Shown here: positions 19,601 to 44,200 of the stretch, piece after piece
How positions within the stretch are numbered: position 1 is the first letter of the stretch
Layout: each line of letters opens with the position of its first letter
Assembly (NCBI RefSeq): GCF_900115365.1
Contig: NZ_FOWD01000009.1
Location: 62,001 to 126,000, forward strand
Direction of reading: 5' to 3'
DNA: 64,000 nucleotides
Origin: Anaerocolumna aminovalerica
GTDB taxonomy: Bacteria > Bacillota > Clostridia > Lachnospirales > Lachnospiraceae
Made by a program: the position numbers and the translations under genes
The notes under the pieces: model-generated
Told to the model about the DNA's origin: nothing
What the model saw: the letters and a program-made list of their open reading frames with translations, nothing else
Database searches by the model: none

Positions 19601-19670
19601 AAATTTCCTCGTATAATGTTATCATTTTCAACACAATAACAAATCATAACAAAAGAAAGGTCTGGAGATA

Positions 19671-19782
19671 GGTTGAAAAAACAAGTTTTTTCAACCGGCA
19701 ATTTGTGCGACACAAATTGTGCCTAAGCACAAAAATTGCTGTCGTTATTAAATGGTGCTAAAGCACCGGAATCGAGGTTAAT
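19671..19782 (+). repeat. structured SD-bearing element, copy A
   Basis: Three hairpins in a row: GGTTGAAAAAA/TTTTTTCAACC, a GCAATTTGTGCG...CAAATTG structure, and GGTGC-TAAA-GCACC. The element then ends GGAATCGAGGTTAAT directly against the ATG at 19783, so its end supplies the Shine-Dalgarno sequence. Homologous copies lie at 35835, 37603 and 33967 on the other strand. Confidence 0.85.
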
Positions 19783-21357
19783 ATGTTTACGAATATAAAA
19801 CTTTTATTGGGAACAGGCGTTGTAATCATAGTGTTAATTCTTTGCCTTGCTTTCTTATTGAACAAGACATTAAATAAGAATAAAAAGAATAGTAAATCCG
19901 AGGATTCGGAACTTATCTATATGAAGGATTCCGACGAAGTGATTTCTCCTTCCTCTGAGAATAATGGGGCTTCCATGTCAAATGGTTCTGAAAGCAATAC
20001 CAACAAGGATTCCGTTGGAACTTCCGATGAGAATTCTGATGCAGATTCTGATGATATTTCAGAAAATGAGACTGATGACTCTGATTCATCTGAAGATTCA
20101 CCCGAGGAAGATTCCGATGATACATCGCCTGTTAAAGTTACTAAAACTCTTACCATATACTCTGGTAACACAGATCGCATAAAAATTAAGTCTATAGAAG
20201 GCAAACCAGAAAATATTACTTATATTTCAGAAGATACCTCTATTGCAGAAGTATTAATTAACGGTCATGTAATTGCTAATCAGGAAGGTACTACAAATAT
20301 TACCACTTCATTTTCACTAAATGGGGAAGACATGTCCTTCCTAACCTCCATTACTGTATTATCTGGCAGGGTATCTGTTACTGCCTCAGAGGTTACGGTT
20401 ATGGAAGGTACTTCTTCAAAAATAAAAACTAAAGTCAACAAAGGTGTATTAAGCGGAGTTACTTATGTGTCAGACAATCCTGAAGTTGCAACTGTAGTTA
20501 ATGACGGTGTTGACGGTATCATAACCGGAGTAGGCCAAGGAACGGCTTCCATTACCGTTACTGCGGATGTATCCGGAACTATTACAGTGAAAGAGGTCTC
20601 CGTTACCGTTTCTGCTTTTAATGCAGAAAGTCTTCCTATTCATAATCCGGTAAACGCAGAAAATTTTACAGAAGAGGATGACTGGCAAGGAAGCCGTGTA
20701 TACTTCGGTGTATTTGAACAGGATAATAAGACCAGCAACGGTAAAGAGCCTATCTTATGGAGAGTCCTTGAAGTAAATGAAGATTCTGCCCTTCTGCTAT
20801 CAGAATACGGTTTGATTTGTAAAAATATCAACGAGACCTTTGAGGATTTCACATGGGAAACCTGTTCTTTACGAAATTGGTTAAATACCTCTTTCTTAGA
20901 TATAGCATTTACTACTCTTGAGAAGAAGGCCATCTTAGACAGCAATATTACAACTCCTGACAGTAAATATTGGGGTACCAAAGGCGGAAATGACACCGTA
21001 GATAAGGTATTCCTTCCAACTATGCAGGATGTTATGAATCCCGCTTACGGATTCAAAAAAGACATGAAGCCTTCTAAAACCAGAATGTTAAAATGCACTA
21101 CTTATGCCCGTAAAAATGGCGGATATAAAAATAAGACCAATGGTAATACCTGCTGGTGGCTCCGCTCACCGGCTCTCCATGAAAAATATGCTGCTTATGT
21201 ATTTACCACAGGTGCTATTACTGCAACCTATTTTGTAGGAAGACGTTACGACGCCATAAGGCCTGCTATTTGGGTCGATTTATCTGCCATACAAATGAAG
21301 CAGCCGGCAGAAACCGGGGAGAATGTATATCCTTATATTAATGTAAAAGAATATTAG
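19783..21357 (+). CDS. membrane-anchored Ig-like/DUF6273 surface protein
   Basis: A 524-residue protein. One N-terminal membrane segment (about 8-27, LGTGVVIIVLILCLAFLL) has few charged residues before it and anchors the protein outside. A highly acidic Ser/Asp/Glu stretch covers about 38-115. Two BIG_2-type units follow (about 120-195 and 200-285). The C-terminal part (about 305-510) is a DUF6273-type domain: YFGVFEQDN...PILWRVLEV, SLRNWLN, WWLRSP and the final RPAIWVDLSA. These resemble the C-type-lectin-like domains found in gut clostridial surface proteins. Function is unknown; binding at the cell surface is a guess. Its RBS lies inside the repeat element just upstream. Confidence 0.82.
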   Translation: MFTNIKLLLGTGVVIIVLILCLAFLLNKTLNKNKKNSKSEDSELIYMKDSDEVISPSSENNGASMSNGSESNTNKDSVGTSDENSDADSDDISENETDDSDSSEDSPEEDSDDTSPVKVTKTLTIYSGNTDRIKIKSIEGKPENITYISEDTSIAEVLINGHVIANQEGTTNITTSFSLNGEDMSFLTSITVLSGRVSVTASEVTVMEGTSSKIKTKVNKGVLSGVTYVSDNPEVATVVNDGVDGIITGVGQGTASITVTADVSGTITVKEVSVTVSAFNAESLPIHNPVNAENFTEEDDWQGSRVYFGVFEQDNKTSNGKEPILWRVLEVNEDSALLLSEYGLICKNINETFEDFTWETCSLRNWLNTSFLDIAFTTLEKKAILDSNITTPDSKYWGTKGGNDTVDKVFLPTMQDVMNPAYGFKKDMKPSKTRMLKCTTYARKNGGYKNKTNGNTCWWLRSPALHEKYAAYVFTTGAITATYFVGRRYDAIRPAIWVDLSAIQMKQPAETGENVYPYINVKEY

Positions 21358-32598: not shown

Positions 32599-33966
32599 TT
32601 ATCTATCAGCGTTTTTAGCATCAGCCTTTTCCCTATATTCTTTGTAGAGCGGAGCATATTGTGCTGCATCTTTTATTACACAACCTGTACGTCCATGATC
32701 ACGCATAATCTGTGTACACTTACTGCATGCGATACAACATTTCTTCGGGTCCATAGCTTCTGTTCTAAAGATATCCTTTGGTGCATCGGGATATGCAAAT
32801 GCTTCACGTCCCAGTCCAACTAATGAGCAGGAACCATCCTGAATATTTGCAGATCCAGCATATGGCAGGAATTGACGCAACCAGCTATATCCATTACCAA
32901 TTACAGGAACAGTAGAAACCTTTTGAATCTGTCTTGTAAAATTGAATAATCTTGCAATACTTTCTAATGGATGTTCTGGTGGTACTTCTCCTCCAATGAT
33001 AGCGGAATCAAATGGACGGGTAACTTGTGGGAATCTATAGTATGGGTTACCTGCTGAGTTGCTTAATAAGTCAACTCCATTCTCACATAATAATTTTACT
33101 AGTTGTAATGGCTCAGTAAAGTCTTCTTTTGTATAGTCATCTTTATCTACTCCAAAGCCATATGGATATGGATGATAATCGAATACATTGAGTCTGCATG
33201 CTATAATAAAATCTTCACCAACAGCTTTACGAACTTCTTTTACGATTGTTAATAACAAGCGTATACGATTTTCGAAGCTTCCGCCGTATTTTCCTTTTCT
33301 TGTATGGCTGGCTAAGATTTCAGATAACAGATATCTATGGCAGGATTTAATGTCAACACCGTCAAATCCAACTTCTTTTGCAAGTAAAGCAGACTGAACA
33401 TATTTACCAACTAAACTGTCAAGATATTCATCTGTTACAACGGGATAGTCATTAGTAATCCCTACTCTGGGATCTAATAATGGATCATGCTGCGCAATCA
33501 TAGGAGCTCCATTGTCTGCCGGACGGGAATATCTTCCTGAGTGAGTTAATTGTAAGATATTAAGTGGTTTGTGATCACTTCCACAGGAATCTGCAGCAGT
33601 TTTTTTGCAAACTTGAATTAATTTCGCAAATTCACCTTTGTTTTCTTTGGTAATCATCATTTGCAAAGGATTTGCTCTGCCTTCTTGTACCACTGCATTT
33701 GCTTCCCACCATAGAAGTCCGGCACCGCCAGCGGAGAAACGTTCATATCTTCTATATACTAATTCCGATGGACTTCCGTCAGGATTACTGTCGCAGCCTT
33801 CCATTGGAAGAATTGCAATAGAGTTTGGAGCTATTTTATTACCTACCTTAACTGGTTTTTTCAAAGGTTCAAGATTGTGGGATAATGTAATATCCACTCC
33901 TAGTTCTTCAATCTTTCCTTGGATTTCTTCCATTGTTTTAAAGTTAAATTTTTCAAATTGTGACAT
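32599..33966 (-). CDS. old yellow enzyme-like FMN/FeS oxidoreductase
   Basis: A 455-residue protein of the NADH:flavin oxidoreductase (OYE/2,4-dienoyl-CoA reductase) TIM-barrel family. Visible pieces are LQLTHSGRYSRPADN, GFDGVDIKSCHRYLLSEILASHTRKGKYGGSFENR, LLSNSAGNPYYRFP and PVIGNGYSW. A C-terminal cysteine cluster, CCIACSKCTQIM then GC, is at about 412-432 and would bind 4Fe-4S. The FAD/NADH domains of full-length dienoyl-CoA reductases are missing, so an external electron donor is needed. The catalytic HRH of classic OYE appears as KSCHRY. It probably reduces a C=C bond. The RBS is in the repeat element directly upstream. Confidence 0.83.
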   Translation of the reverse strand: MSQFEKFNFKTMEEIQGKIEELGVDITLSHNLEPLKKPVKVGNKIAPNSIAILPMEGCDSNPDGSPSELVYRRYERFSAGGAGLLWWEANAVVQEGRANPLQMMITKENKGEFAKLIQVCKKTAADSCGSDHKPLNILQLTHSGRYSRPADNGAPMIAQHDPLLDPRVGITNDYPVVTDEYLDSLVGKYVQSALLAKEVGFDGVDIKSCHRYLLSEILASHTRKGKYGGSFENRIRLLLTIVKEVRKAVGEDFIIACRLNVFDYHPYPYGFGVDKDDYTKEDFTEPLQLVKLLCENGVDLLSNSAGNPYYRFPQVTRPFDSAIIGGEVPPEHPLESIARLFNFTRQIQKVSTVPVIGNGYSWLRQFLPYAGSANIQDGSCSLVGLGREAFAYPDAPKDIFRTEAMDPKKCCIACSKCTQIMRDHGRTGCVIKDAAQYAPLYKEYREKADAKNADR

Positions 33967-33995
33967 ATTAACCTCGATTCTGGCGCTTTATTGCC
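33967..33995 (-). repeat. structured SD-bearing element, copy D (truncated)
   Basis: Only the third hairpin (GGCAA-TAAA-GCGCC, partly mismatched) and the terminal AGAATCGAGGTTAAT remain, fused to the ATG at 33966. It begins three bases after the stop of the upstream gene. Confidence 0.7.
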
Positions 33996-34838: not shown

Positions 34839-35834
34839 CTATTTTGTTGTCTTGCGAATGATAATCTCCGTATCTAACATATCAATTACCGGCTCTGCAG
34901 GTCCATGGCCGTTTATAATATTTAATAATTTCTTTGCTGCCAGACTTCCCATCTGATAAAATGGTTGAGAAACTGTTGAAAGGGGCGGATTCAACAAAGT
35001 ACTTACTGCTATATTATCAAAACCCAGCACCGATATATCGTCTGGTATTTTTAAACCATAGTCCATTATTGCTTTCATGGTTACGATAGCTTTTGGATCA
35101 CTGGTTGCAAAAACAGCATCAATTCTATCTTCCTTTTTCAAAAGTTCCATCATGGCCTGATAAAGCCCATTATCACCACTGGTTTCATAAATTATCAAAT
35201 TTTCATCAAGCTCTAAGCCTGCATTTTGTATGGCATCTTTATAGCCTTGTAATCTCTGTCCATAGACATTCAATTCCGGACGTCCTACTACAATTGCAAT
35301 TTTTTTATTGCCTGTACGGATTAAATAATTGGTTGCATCATAGCCTGCCTGATAATTGTTTATAATAACGGAGTTCATTTTCTCACCATAATATCTGGAT
35401 ACCAATACAACCGGAAAACCATCTTTATGAAGCTGCCTGATACTATCGCTGTCTTTTAGCATGGAGCATACTATAAATCCATCTACAATGTTTTGGCTTA
35501 ATTTATTCACATAATATTTTTCAATTTCTATATCATCATCTATGTCGCATAAAATAATATTGTATCCTCTTTTTCTTACAAAATCTTCAACCCCTCTAAT
35601 AATTGGCGGGAACATTTCGTTTTGAATATTAGGTATTAAGAGTCCAATGTTATTACTACGTCCGCCCTTTAATCCTTTTGCAAGAACGTTTGGGGTATAA
35701 TTCAGCTCTTTAACAGCTTTTAGAACTTTTTCCCTGGTTTCTTTTTTAATATAGTATTGGTTATCACTAAGCACCCTGGATACTGTGCTGGGAGAAACCC
35801 CTGCCCGTTCAGCCACATCCTTTATATTTGACAT
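34839..35834 (-). CDS. LacI-family transcriptional regulator
   Basis: A 331-residue regulator. The N-terminal helix-turn-helix is IKDVAERAGVSPSTVSRVLSDNQYY (residues 4-28), with the hinge helix NVLAKGLKGGRSNNIGLLIP. The periplasmic-binding-protein-like effector domain follows. The effector is presumably the locus substrate or a sugar derivative. Two identical 14-bp palindromes near the start of the importer operon (42496 and 42661) are the best candidate operators. The start codon directly follows the SD-bearing element copy B, so its translation may depend on that structure. Confidence 0.93.
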   Translation of the reverse strand: MSNIKDVAERAGVSPSTVSRVLSDNQYYIKKETREKVLKAVKELNYTPNVLAKGLKGGRSNNIGLLIPNIQNEMFPPIIRGVEDFVRKRGYNIILCDIDDDIEIEKYYVNKLSQNIVDGFIVCSMLKDSDSIRQLHKDGFPVVLVSRYYGEKMNSVIINNYQAGYDATNYLIRTGNKKIAIVVGRPELNVYGQRLQGYKDAIQNAGLELDENLIIYETSGDNGLYQAMMELLKKEDRIDAVFATSDPKAIVTMKAIMDYGLKIPDDISVLGFDNIAVSTLLNPPLSTVSQPFYQMGSLAAKKLLNIINGHGPAEPVIDMLDTEIIIRKTTK

Positions 35835-35937
35835 TTTAACCTCGATTCCGGTGCTTTAGCACCATTATAATAATGGCAGCGATTTGTGCTCGGTACAAAT
35901 CGCCAGTTGAAAAAACCTTGCTTTTTTCAACCTAGCA
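35835..35937 (-). repeat. structured SD-bearing element, copy B
   Basis: Read leftward: GGTTGAAAAAAGC...TTTTTTCAAC, then CGATTTGTACCGAGCACAAATCG, then GGTGC-TAAA-GCACC, then GGAATCGAGGTTAAA against the ATG at 35834. It fills the whole gap between the dehydratase stop and the regulator start. Confidence 0.87.
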
Positions 35938-35943
35938 CCACCC

Positions 35944-37602
35944 TTATTTATTCCAATATACAGTAGCCCCCCTGTGAGCTGATGTGCAGTTCTTCTTGTA
36001 TAATCCTAACCATCCTGGAGATGGTTTTTCTACCGGTTTCCAGTTTTTCTTTCTGTCTTCAATTTCCTTGTCAGTTAAAGCTACTGTCAGCAAACGATTC
36101 TCTATATCGATATCTATTATATCTCCATCTTGAATGATTGCAATATTACCGCCTTCATAAGCTTCCGGTGATACGTGCCCAATTGCCAATCCACCAGTAG
36201 CACCTGAGAATCTTCCGTCTGATACCAATGCAATCTTTGTGCCCATGCCTTTACCTAATACGGCTGCCATAAAGGTTTCCATATGAGGCATACCCGGTGA
36301 TCCCTTTGGTCCCTCATACCGAATGACTACAACATCTCCGGCTTTGATCTCATCTTTCAAAATAGCATTCCATGCATCATCCTGGGAATTATAGACCTTT
36401 GCAGGTCCTCTAAACTTCCATACTGCTTTATCTACCGCGGAAAATTTAACAATACAGCTATCTGTTGCAATGTTGCCGGATAATACAGCTAAACCGCCTT
36501 GCTCATGTATGGGACTGGAAACAGGATGTATAACATCAGTATTTTTATTATCTGATAATGCAATTTTATCTGCTAAAGTACCAAACATTCCTTTTGCACT
36601 TGTTTCTACCAGTCCTGCCTTATCAAGTTCTGACATCACTGCTCCTAATCCACCTGCCATACTAAAATCTGCCATAGTATAGGCAGGGTGATTTGGGTAT
36701 ATAGTACTGATTACCGGTATTTTTCTGCTGATATCATCAAATATTTCCGGGATAATTTCAATATCTGCTTGCCTTGCCATGGCAGGAATATGTAAAATGG
36801 AATTCGTAGATCCGCCGGTTGCCATCATATATTTGACCGCATTTTCAAAGTTCTCTTTCTTAATAATGTCTCTGGGCTTAACTTCTTCTTTCACTAATTC
36901 TACAATTCTTTTCCCTACGATCTTCGCCATTTCATTCCATTCCTTGGACTGGCATCTGACACTTGCATTACCATGTGGTGATAAACCTAATATTTCAGCC
37001 GTTGCACACATAGTGTTGGCAGTTCCCATAAAGGGACAGGCACCTGGGGTTGGACAGGCATTGCGAACTACTTGTTTATATTCCTCTTCTGAAATGTCTC
37101 CTGCAATATAAGAGGCATATGCTTGTTTTGTATGTGTTAAGGTAATCATTTTTCCATCTATGTTACCGGGAGCCATAAAACCGCCTGTCATCATAACGGT
37201 AGGAATATTTACTCTTAAAGCACCCATGATCATACCTGGAACTACCTTATCACAGGTACCTAGCATAACCATACCTTCCAAGCCATTTAATTCTGCTACT
37301 GTTTCCACTTCAGATGATACCATATCACGGGCAGGCAGAGTATAGCGGTCTCCCGGTGTATTGGAACACATACCGTCACAAATACCTGAAATGGGTAATT
37401 CTACTGCATATCCACCTGCGTTATATATTTCATCTTTGATTTTTTGTATTACTTCTTTAAAAGCATAATGTCCCGGGTTCATTTCATTCCAGGAATTTAC
37501 GATACCAATAACGGAACGTTTTGCGTCTGCTTCTGTGACACCCATGGCATATAACAATGCATTTCTGTGATCCAGTGATTCTTCATTCCATTCCCTGATC
37601 AT
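35944..37602 (-). CDS. IlvD/Edd-family dehydratase, probably for a sugar acid
   Basis: A 552-residue FeS-dependent dehydratase. Family segments are [66 protein letters not shown] (cluster cysteines) and [19 protein letters not shown]. It removes water from a dihydroxy acid to yield a 2-keto acid. IlvD of valine synthesis is the alternative. No ilvBNC genes are nearby, and the catabolic neighbours and LacI regulator favour a sugar-acid substrate such as an aldonate. It begins at the SD-bearing element copy C. Confidence 0.85.
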
Positions 37603-37672
37603 ATTAACCTCGATTCCGGCGCTTTAACGCCTTTTAATAATGACTTTTGTGGGACCGTACAAATTGCTACAT
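37603..37672 (-). repeat. structured SD-bearing element, copy C
   Basis: Read leftward: GTAGCAATTTGTACGG...ACAAAAGTCATTATTAAAA, then GGCGT-TAAA-GCGCC, then GGAATCGAGGTTAAT against the ATG at 37602. The stem differs from copies A and B but pairing is kept (T-A to C-G type change plus a G-U), which supports an RNA structure. Confidence 0.85.
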
Positions 37673-37688
37673 CTATCAAAATTTATTA

Positions 37689-38387
37689 TCAGCCACCTAA
37701 ATAAGCTTTCTTTACTGATTCAGAACATAATAACTCTTTTCCGGTTCCTTCCAGAATTATCTCGCCATTTTCCAATACATAGGCTTTGTCACATAGCCCA
37801 AGTGCTTTCTTGGCATTCTGTTCAACTAATAATACGGTAATTCCTCTATCACGAATCTGGGCAATTAATTCATATACCTGATTTACGATAAGGGGAGCCA
37901 GACCTAATGAGGGCTCATCTAATAACATTAGCTTTGGATGTGACATAAGTCCTCTTGCAATAGCAAGCATCTGCTGCTCTCCTCCTGATAGAGTTCCGGC
38001 ATATTGTTCTTTACGTTGTTTCAATATAGGGAATAATTCATAATTCTTCTTTAATTCTTCTTCATTTTCTTTTGCACTGAATAGGTAGCCACCAACTAAT
38101 AGATTATCTTGAATTGATAGTCCTGAGAAAGTTTTTCTTCCTTCTGGTACATGAATGATACCTTTTTTTACTATATCATTTGGTTTCTTTGGTATCTGTT
38201 CTCCTAAGAATTCAATCGTTCCGGAAGTAGGCTTTACCAAACCGGAGATACAGCGAAGTAACGAAGTTTTACCGGCACCGTTTGCACCAATAATAGATAC
38301 AATTTGTCCTTGATCAGCCTTAATTGATACTTCTTTCAAAGCTTTTACGTATCCATAACTTGCAGATAAATTATTTACTTTAAGCAT
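37689..38387 (-). CDS. livF: branched-chain amino acid-type ABC importer, ATPase LivF
   Basis: A 232-residue ATPase, last gene of the importer group. Walker A is GANGAGKTS, signature TLSGGEQQMLAIARGL and Walker B LMLLDEPSLGLAP, the typical LivF form. The ATG at 38387 with AGGAGGA upstream is preferred to 38405 because it gives MLKVNNLSASYG, the usual start. It overlaps livG by eight bases. The substrate is not necessarily an amino acid: Liv-type systems also carry aromatic and other organic acids. Confidence 0.93.
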   Translation of the reverse strand: MLKVNNLSASYGYVKALKEVSIKADQGQIVSIIGANGAGKTSLLRCISGLVKPTSGTIEFLGEQIPKKPNDIVKKGIIHVPEGRKTFSGLSIQDNLLVGGYLFSAKENEEELKKNYELFPILKQRKEQYAGTLSGGEQQMLAIARGLMSHPKLMLLDEPSLGLAPLIVNQVYELIAQIRDRGITVLLVEQNAKKALGLCDKAYVLENGEIILEGTGKELLCSESVKKAYLGG

Positions 38388-43794: not shown

Positions 43795-43819
43795 CAGGTT
43801 AAGATTTATATAATATTTA

Positions 43820-44200
43820 AGTGAGCAGCACTATAAGCCGAGTTCTGTATTCGATGATCATCTATCTTTGCTACATGTTACCATATAGCTCATTTGTCAA
43901 AGACAAATCGCGACCTACCCAAAGCACGGCGGGCAACCGTATCGCTTTTAATTCGGTCTTACTTCGAGTGGGGTTTACAGAGCCTTGTTTGTTACCAAAC
44001 AAGCGGTGGTCTCTTACACCACCTTTCCACCCTTACCAAAACATCTGCAAGCAGATGAATCTGGCGGTATATTTCTATTGCACTAGCCTTGGAGTCACCT
44101 CCACCGGACGTTATCCGGCACCCTGCCCTATGAAGCTCGGACTTTCCTCACCTATGACCTTTCGGTACTTATAGGCGCGATCATCTGTGCTACTCAGCTT
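43820..44200 (-). ncRNA. rnpB: RNase P RNA (catalytic subunit)
   Basis: Reading leftward the sequence has the hallmark GAGGAAAGTCCGAGCTTC, then AGGGCAGGGTGCCGGATAAC, GGTAAGGGTGGAAAGGTG and AGGTCGCGATTTGTC, and ends with ACAGAACTCGGCTTATAGTG. This is the conserved core of bacterial RNase P RNA, which cleaves tRNA precursors. P1 forms from GAGTAGCAC near the 5' end and GTGCTGCTC at the 3' end. The order of P-elements suggests the ancestral A-type architecture. End positions are approximate. Confidence 0.95.

Follow-up and report, generated by a model that had tools for sequence, protein, structure and literature searches.

A short structured element that probably enters the spacer between Shine-Dalgarno site and start codon in Anaerocolumna aminovalerica and its relatives

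Why would the same structured repeat lie, in one bacterial chromosome, immediately in front of the start codons of genes that have nothing else in common? This question is raised by a 64,000-nucleotide stretch of the Anaerocolumna aminovalerica genome, hereafter the window, in which four copies of such a repeat had been predicted, together with the proposal that it might be a mobile 5'-UTR cassette that installs a translation start. In this report, we examine the copies of the window, those of its own genome (designated G000; 4.62 Mb in 83 contigs) and those of related bacteria. Our main conclusion, to which we attach a probability of roughly 85%, is that the repeat is a short non-autonomous mobile element that enters the spacer between the Shine-Dalgarno sequence (SD) and the start codon in the sense orientation, and supplies a replacement SD.

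Four copies are indeed found in the window at or near the predicted positions, and two of them display the predicted order of hairpins 1, 2 and 3. Copy A is a full-length element on the forward strand (AGGTTG ... GAGGTTA, 19670..19780; covariance-model match of 104.7 bits, E 6e-15, G000:C63:81670-81780); its hairpin 1 (19671..19696) is the left-end palindrome, hairpin 3 (GGTGC TAAA GCACC) occupies 19754..19767, and the new SD, GAGG, lies at 19774..19777, 5 nt upstream of the ATG at 19783 (all +). Copy B, the subject of this study, is also full length (35837..35933, -; 98.2 bits, E 9e-14, C63:97837-97933), with hairpin 3 at 35850..35863 and its GAGG at 35840..35843, again 5 nt upstream of an ATG, at 35834 (all -). 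The common order does not extend to the other two: copy C (37605..37695, -; 50.1 bits, E 4e-5, C63:99605-99695) has decayed hairpins 1 and 2 and retains hairpin 3 (37618..37631, -; GGCGT TAAA GCGCC, with one G-U pair) and the new SD GAGG (37608..37611, -), while copy D (33968..33995, -) is a remnant reduced to a degenerate hairpin 3 and the SD. Each copy ends two bases upstream of the start codon, and not exactly at it as first described. According to Pfam, the genes that follow are as unlike one another as had been claimed: a DUF6273/Big_2 protein after copy A (19783..21357, +), a LacI-family regulator after copy B (34839..35834, -), an IlvD/Edd dehydratase after copy C (35944..37602, -) and an Oxidored_FMN (OYE) protein after copy D (32599..33966, -). 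One feature absent from the original prediction is an SD-like stretch, taken as the native SD, to the left of most full copies. In the sequence of the window it reads GGAG at copy A (19664..19667, +), in keeping with the general left-flank pattern, and GGGTGG at copy B (35938..35943, -), where it adjoins the stop codon of the dehydratase ORF; both are presumed to be displaced native SDs.

The motif GGAATCGAGGTTAA is exact in three of the window copies and carries one mismatch in the fourth; at up to three mismatches it occurs nine times in the window, against a mean of 6.0 after shuffling, and 16 of 100 shuffles reach nine. As the motif is not enriched within the window alone, proof must rest on the whole genome. 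There, GGAATCGAGGTTAA is present 61 times at up to one mismatch (15 exact), compared to 4 for a reversed control pattern. An initial parse gave 14 full copies; the one belonging to another genome was set aside, and the remaining 13 were used to build a covariance model, R1. Searching G000, R1 yielded 137 matches at E up to 1, weak hits included. Only 150 of 4373 candidates were scored in this search, which consequently misses copies, copy D among them. Moreover, placement relative to genes is far from random. In 113 of the 137 matches, an ORF of 50 aa or more (30 aa or more where it runs off the locus) has its start codon within 14 nt of the element end, against 11.5% of random positions from the same loci; in 103 of the 137, the distance from the final A of GAGGTTA to this codon is exactly 2 nt, against about 0.85% per distance at random. 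By reading, the 24 matches without a qualifying ORF comprise 8 outer copies whose right end holds a further, nested element, 9 with an ATG at 2 nt and a shorter ORF, and 7 that look decayed or spurious, one of which is the antisense of the copy A palindrome. Copies are also arranged in tandem, and 5'-truncated ones occur. The genes behind the elements, named from their sequence, include glyS, pheS, pheT, valS, tyrS, metK, accA and ftsW. Ten of the 113 copies stand at other distances from the start codon, and four of these are of a second element type. A second start-associated type (AGGTTGAAAG or GTGTGAAAG plus a TTCTTTCA arm, ending AAAGGAGTATGGTTA-like in G000) is seen at glyS of G008, at aspS of G004 and in G000 at C43:183644, C65:69696 and C40:140426; it is possibly another subfamily that behaves alike.

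The site that is entered can be described from the junctions. The element ends in its own SD, GGAATCGAGG or GGAATGGAG, and a further SD precedes the cut on the left, as in GAAAGGAGGTT|AGGTTG. A match of at least four of six positions to AGGAGG is present left of 60 of the 62 non-nested copies of relatives and of 22 of the 32 non-nested copies of G000, at 0-6 nt from the cut in relatives (26 of 60 at 2 nt) and 0-10 nt in G000. The cut lies 3 nt before ATG in 48 of these 62 and 27 of these 32 copies. Native SD-to-ATG spacing was measured wherever another gene had a clear SD, as did 206 of 641 ORFs from the relatives' loci and 60 of 119 from those of G000 (mechanical longest-ORF starts); it is spread mainly over 5-10 nt. 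As the cut spacing is tight and the SD distance variable, insertion is anchored on the start codon more than on the SD, and such anchoring arises either by recognition or by selection. The base left of the cut is T in 76 of 87 copies, with A at -3 in 60 of 78 and G at -6 in 68 of 87. The left end of the element, AGNDTG, itself resembles ANN followed by a start codon (GTG 58, TTG 16, ATG 11, CTG 2; n = 87), the right end is SD-like, and the two junctions resemble each other. Indeed, the target (purine tract...T|ANNATG), the left junction (T|AGNDTG) and the right junction (GGAGNTT|ANNATG) share a single pattern, SD-T|ANN-start codon, which the presumed circle junction, GGAGATT|AGTGTG, fits as well. 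Among 86 non-redundant parsed relatives, GGAG of the new SD lies 6 nt before ATG in 61, 7 nt in 10, 5 nt in 4 and at other distances in 3; in the remaining 8, the stretch read contains no ATG, and GTG is visible in at least five of them.

It is conceivable, at odds we place somewhat below even, that what the integration machinery recognizes is the translation initiation site as such. In that case, the element would imitate a ribosome initiation site in portable form, home to start codons and put back the SD that it displaces. Selection offers another account, which we hold to be plausible without giving it an even chance: the same mobile element would enter numerous T|A sites preceded by SD-like purine tracts, and the fixed ATG spacing would be explained by the survival of only those insertions that place its own SD at a good distance. 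SD-like purines, with the G at -6, are besides T the strongest feature of the left flank, the SD-to-cut distance peaks at 2 nt, and many targets look essential, as selection would have it. Yet 103 of 113 copies share one spacing where native genes use mainly 5-10 nt, four of the ten exceptions are of the second type, and only 7 of the 137 matches, decayed or spurious by their look, are neither near a start codon nor the outer member of a nested pair.

The likeness of the two SDs of a copy deserves separate mention. Left and right stretches are identical over 7 nt in 13 of 86 copies from all genomes, against 2.9 after shuffling; within G000 (44 copies), one of six positions exceeds the shuffles (P 0.02). 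Over all genomes, this likeness is not predicted by a plain model without duplication. Genome-level preferences and nesting explain part of it, and conversion between the two SDs could account for the remainder; duplication of the target as the source of the right SD would also produce likeness, but is contradicted as a general rule by the empty sites presented below. In many relatives, the element opens with a short ORF (often 20 codons, GTGAAAAATAAG...) at SD distance from the displaced native SD, and this ORF reaches or passes the element end in 30 of 87 copies. A conserved leader peptide was considered: although the start-like triplet persists, the ORFs measure anywhere between 4 and 967 codons, 20 being a common length, which leaves the idea unsupported. 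In 85 of 87 copies a start codon (GTG, TTG or ATG) is available at the left end, from which gene callers may derive false small or extended proteins.

Conservation of the fold was assessed by covariation. In G000, 122 of the 137 matches could be aligned gap-free over hairpin 3, the other 15 being dropped, and 79 distinct hairpins were obtained. Of their 395 cells, 300 are paired, where shuffled arms leave 274.0 (sd 5.4), and double changes number 38 versus 19.1. Retention of pairing despite sequence change, initially noticed in the window copies, therefore holds genome-wide, and covariation extends to a 67-row alignment of relatives. Of the 3065 cells that make up hairpins 1, 2 and 4 and a pseudoknot in the latter, 93.6% are paired (84.1% in shuffled and at most 45.1% in slid controls), with 278 double-change cells against 92 shuffled, counts that are inflated by related rows and refer to a structure derived from one of these rows. 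Double changes affect 19 pairs versus 15.9 shuffled (12 of 500 shuffles reach 19), of which 7, 1 and 8 are in the hairpins and 3 in the pseudoknot; further pair types, 47 versus 44.0, are unexceptional. The pseudoknot joins the loop of hairpin 2 (CCGGAGCG and variants) to CGCTCCGG, directly before AATGGAG, and in many relatives it abuts the new SD. In G000 it appears by eye to be weak or lost, its position being taken by hairpin 3 (GGNGC TAAA GCNCC). Seven chosen copies, when folded as RNA, gave z values of -3.0 to -8.4. Rfam 15 gave no match at the element, either in the window at the gathering threshold or at relaxed thresholds in three own-genome and seven relatives' loci, and no group I or group II intron was matched in the window or in the searched loci. 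The only Rfam match of the window at the gathering threshold is a bacterial RNase P class A RNA (RF00010) at 43818-44196 (-).

A fold conserved in this way could also mean that the mobile form is RNA, the transcribed element entering an mRNA or nascent transcript at the initiation site (a ribosome-bound mRNA, for example) and returning by reverse transcription. The sense orientation, start-codon anchoring, covarying fold with its pseudoknot and lack of target duplication agree with such a route. The same folds are possible in single-stranded DNA, however, and the 5'-truncated copies, which exist, could be products of decay; we judge it unlikely.

Direct signs of mobility come from comparing orthologous loci with and without the element, the empty sites being sought in congeners with concatenated protein queries. 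At glyS, G000 reads GAAAGGAATGAAAGT[98 nt]AAGATG and the sister species G013 GAAAGGAATGAAAGT|AAGATG, with flanks identical base for base. At mreC, GGAGGTT[95 nt]ATTATG corresponds to GGAGGTT|ATTATG in G013, with a short indel further left, and at an ABC ATPase gene, GGAGGAAATT[90 nt]AATATG corresponds to GGAGGGAATT|AATATG, with one flank substitution. At all three, the flanks join at T|A, without target duplication beyond one ambiguous A. A fourth pair involves another family of the order: at valS, G089 has AAGGAGGAGTA[138 nt]ATATG and its congener G043 plain AGGAGGAGATTATG, with a similar terminator upstream that bears a T-box-like motif. These four genes are distinct from those behind window copies A-D. 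For a broader comparison of G000 with G013 (81% complete), 28 genes were queried and 17 loci compared: one is a clean empty site (the ABC ATPase gene), six are element-free in G013 with 5' flanks that cannot be aligned, eight are filled in both species by a full element or a remnant, one is ambiguous and one not orthologous. Copy number differs at some of the loci filled in both: one has one copy versus two, and pheS of G013 shows a tandem array of shortened elements with three successive right ends. By eye, the other members of the genus that were read have no copy of the G000 type at glyS, mreC and aspS, and G010, G008 and G004 carry other variants there. The variant of G010 at glyS, GGTTGAAAAATTTACTTTCAGCC...GGAAATGGAGGAAAAGATG, occupies the same place before the gene, which suggests independent hits on one start site. 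In G089, six copies are 89-98% identical before unrelated genes, so that movement there was recent; the G000 copies, with a mean pairwise identity of 72% over 42 copies, are older. The proposed mobile cassette thus gains support from the congeners' empty sites and the nested and tandem copies, as well as from the 137 matches before unrelated genes and the spread across the family. None of the three outcomes named in advance as refuting it was observed, since additional copies, covariation and a non-random placement relative to starts were all found.

The same loci bear on an ancient, riboswitch-like regulatory leader of many genes, vertically inherited and lost in places. A conserved fold and pseudoknot beside the SD, a fixed position and the eight of 17 loci filled in both sister species would suit it, but it is hard to reconcile with precise empty sites that retain a plausible SD in the sister species, with tandem and nested copies, with near-identical G089 copies before unrelated genes, or with the lack of G000-type copies elsewhere in the genus; orthologous conservation without empty sites was not found, and we regard this origin as highly improbable. 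A role as common regulatory leader may exist as a secondary effect. A classical MITE moved by a DDE transposase, with terminal inverted repeats and target duplication, would likewise be short, multicopy and palindromic with partial left-right similarity, but it too has very little probability, because the ends (left AGGTTG/AGTGTG..., right ...GGAATCGAGGTTA/GGAATGGAGATTA) are by eye not inverted copies of each other and the three empty/filled pairs lack a duplication beyond the one ambiguous base. Broadly speaking, the element belongs to the short interspersed non-autonomous elements, but by these tests it is not a MITE.

For the mobile element that replaces an SD, the following course of events can be proposed. 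An element, mostly of about 80-170 nt, would insert in the sense orientation between the SD of a gene and its start codon. The cut would fall at T|A, in most cases three bases ahead of this codon, and leave the target unduplicated. The native SD would remain on the left, probably disabled by distance, and the element's own SD, at a workable spacing, would now serve the gene; owing to this spacing, even an essential host gene should stay translatable and the insertion be tolerated. In the fold of the inserted element, a terminal palindrome would be joined by a second hairpin and, in many relatives, by a pseudoknot that lies against the new SD. Over time, the 5' part would decay while hairpin 3 and the SD persist, presumably because the gene now needs them.

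As to the enzyme responsible, the absence of duplication, the fixed polarity and the resemblance of the right end to the target point to mobilization in trans by a strand-specific single-strand enzyme of the HUH kind (IS200/IS605 or REPIN-like), an attribution that we make tentatively and at odds well below even; a serine or other recombinase with a TA core is a doubtful candidate. A limited search, of hairpin-1 loci and own-genome Y1 loci, revealed neither a mobilizing enzyme nor an autonomous copy. The hairpin-1 pattern matched four of six genomes, and a long ORF-bearing version was seen neither in the 30 of 47 matching loci that were read nor in 15 long or odd copies. A search of G000 for Y1 transposases gave 17 matches, many at contig ends; in the 10 of these loci that were examined, no element ends were seen at the transposases, and one (L039) has a separate element copy about 0.6 kb away. 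In these 10 loci, the own-genome Y1 transposases gain no support as mobilizers, the nine N-terminal-side loci looking by eye like IS200 types placed behind T-tracts, although a partner may lie elsewhere. These IS200-like (Y1) elements, of at least two types, lie directly behind T-tracts resembling intrinsic terminators, for example TTTTTTTATTG|TATACC (loci L031-L039 on G000 contigs C27, C55, C50, C7, C13, C81, C33 and C28). Of the features of IS200/IS605 elements, the absence of target duplication and the fixed strand polarity are present; a CCTC-like tract before the last hairpin, which might be a guide sequence, was seen by eye in some relatives and not in the window type.

The distribution of the element was determined with a second model, R2. 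Of 91 parsed relatives, 67 went into it, odd-length or divergent ones having been removed by hand, and it contains no G000 copy. At E up to 0.001, R2 matched 66 of 397 genomes of the family (62 of 334 genera), G000 included (best 1.3e-11), and in a 398-genome sample of the phylum only G000. R1 matched 10 of 392 genomes of the order including its own, one of them (G089) from another family. Given the strict filters and the few candidates scored, all these genome counts are lower bounds. A pattern scan of named genomes gave at least 117 stretches, and among the 80 matches listed, most are Lachnospiraceae, Roseburia, Acetatifactor, Eisenbergiella, Anaerocolumna or Eubacteriales; a match in Bathyarchaeota is without element and looks like chance. 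Copies are also present in records of an isolate, 'Bacterium C-53'. Of 118 matches in the named-genome loci, 95 were parsed as elements and 23 skipped (contig ends, N runs, missing arm). The element is spread through many gut-type bacteria. As for possible carriers, viral contigs gave no match to three exact patterns and plasmids none to one 138-nt query; three unverified faecal 'phage' scaffolds match this same query. On one of them, MT836788.1, filed as 'Bacteriophage sp.', the element precedes an ORF whose sequence resembles enolase, so this scaffold is probably bacterial chromosome.

As a rule, mobile elements of bacteria persist because they keep clear of genes or land at sites that can be spared. 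The present element occupies the very bases where insertion should do most harm, even at aminoacyl-tRNA synthetase, metK and ftsW genes, and carries the repair with it. Should our reading be correct, the element provides genes with new 5' leaders across the whole family, about a hundred of them in G000, and is an obvious starting point for placing insertions precisely at start codons. Searches of the openly licensed literature gave no paper recognized as describing it, an absence that carries little weight; its insertion rule and SD replacement are without match in the Rfam searches and the literature found, and it may, though we would not yet wager on it, represent a new principle of target choice.

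Among known systems, the c-di-GMP riboswitch/group I intron of C. difficile is similar in that an RNA derived from a mobile element sets the place of the ribosome binding site relative to the start; it is reported to be one allosteric ribozyme that positions this site by splicing (PMC3984707), whereas our element exists in more than 100 short copies and has no ribozyme match in Rfam. The pneumococcal BOX, RUP and SPRITE repeats are also small, structured and interspersed, and insert into one another; it is further reported that some create ORFs, that convergent genes have more of them in between than expected, that genes can be disrupted by them, and that RUP and BOX resemble IS terminal inverted repeats (PMC3049150). 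The element described here differs in sitting at starts and in being devoid of such inverted repeats.

PATE-type elements derived from IS200/IS605 share with it the absence of target duplication, strand-specific insertion, a terminal hairpin and a target next to a short motif similar to the right end. IS200/IS605 elements usually carry a guide sequence outside the terminal hairpin. Our element has its hairpin 1 from the second base onwards, so that a guide of the usual kind would find no space there; its motif is a translation initiation region, a limited search found no TnpA partner, and the IS200-type copies of its own genome use another site. REP elements, finally, are mostly located outside translation starts. 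The present element is mostly located between SD and start codon and supplies an SD, and the Y1 search of its own genome identified no RAYT-like gene for it; what it has in common with the REP/REPIN sequences moved by RAYT transposases (PMC8049555) is that they are short non-autonomous repeats, many per genome, which persist as sequence populations.
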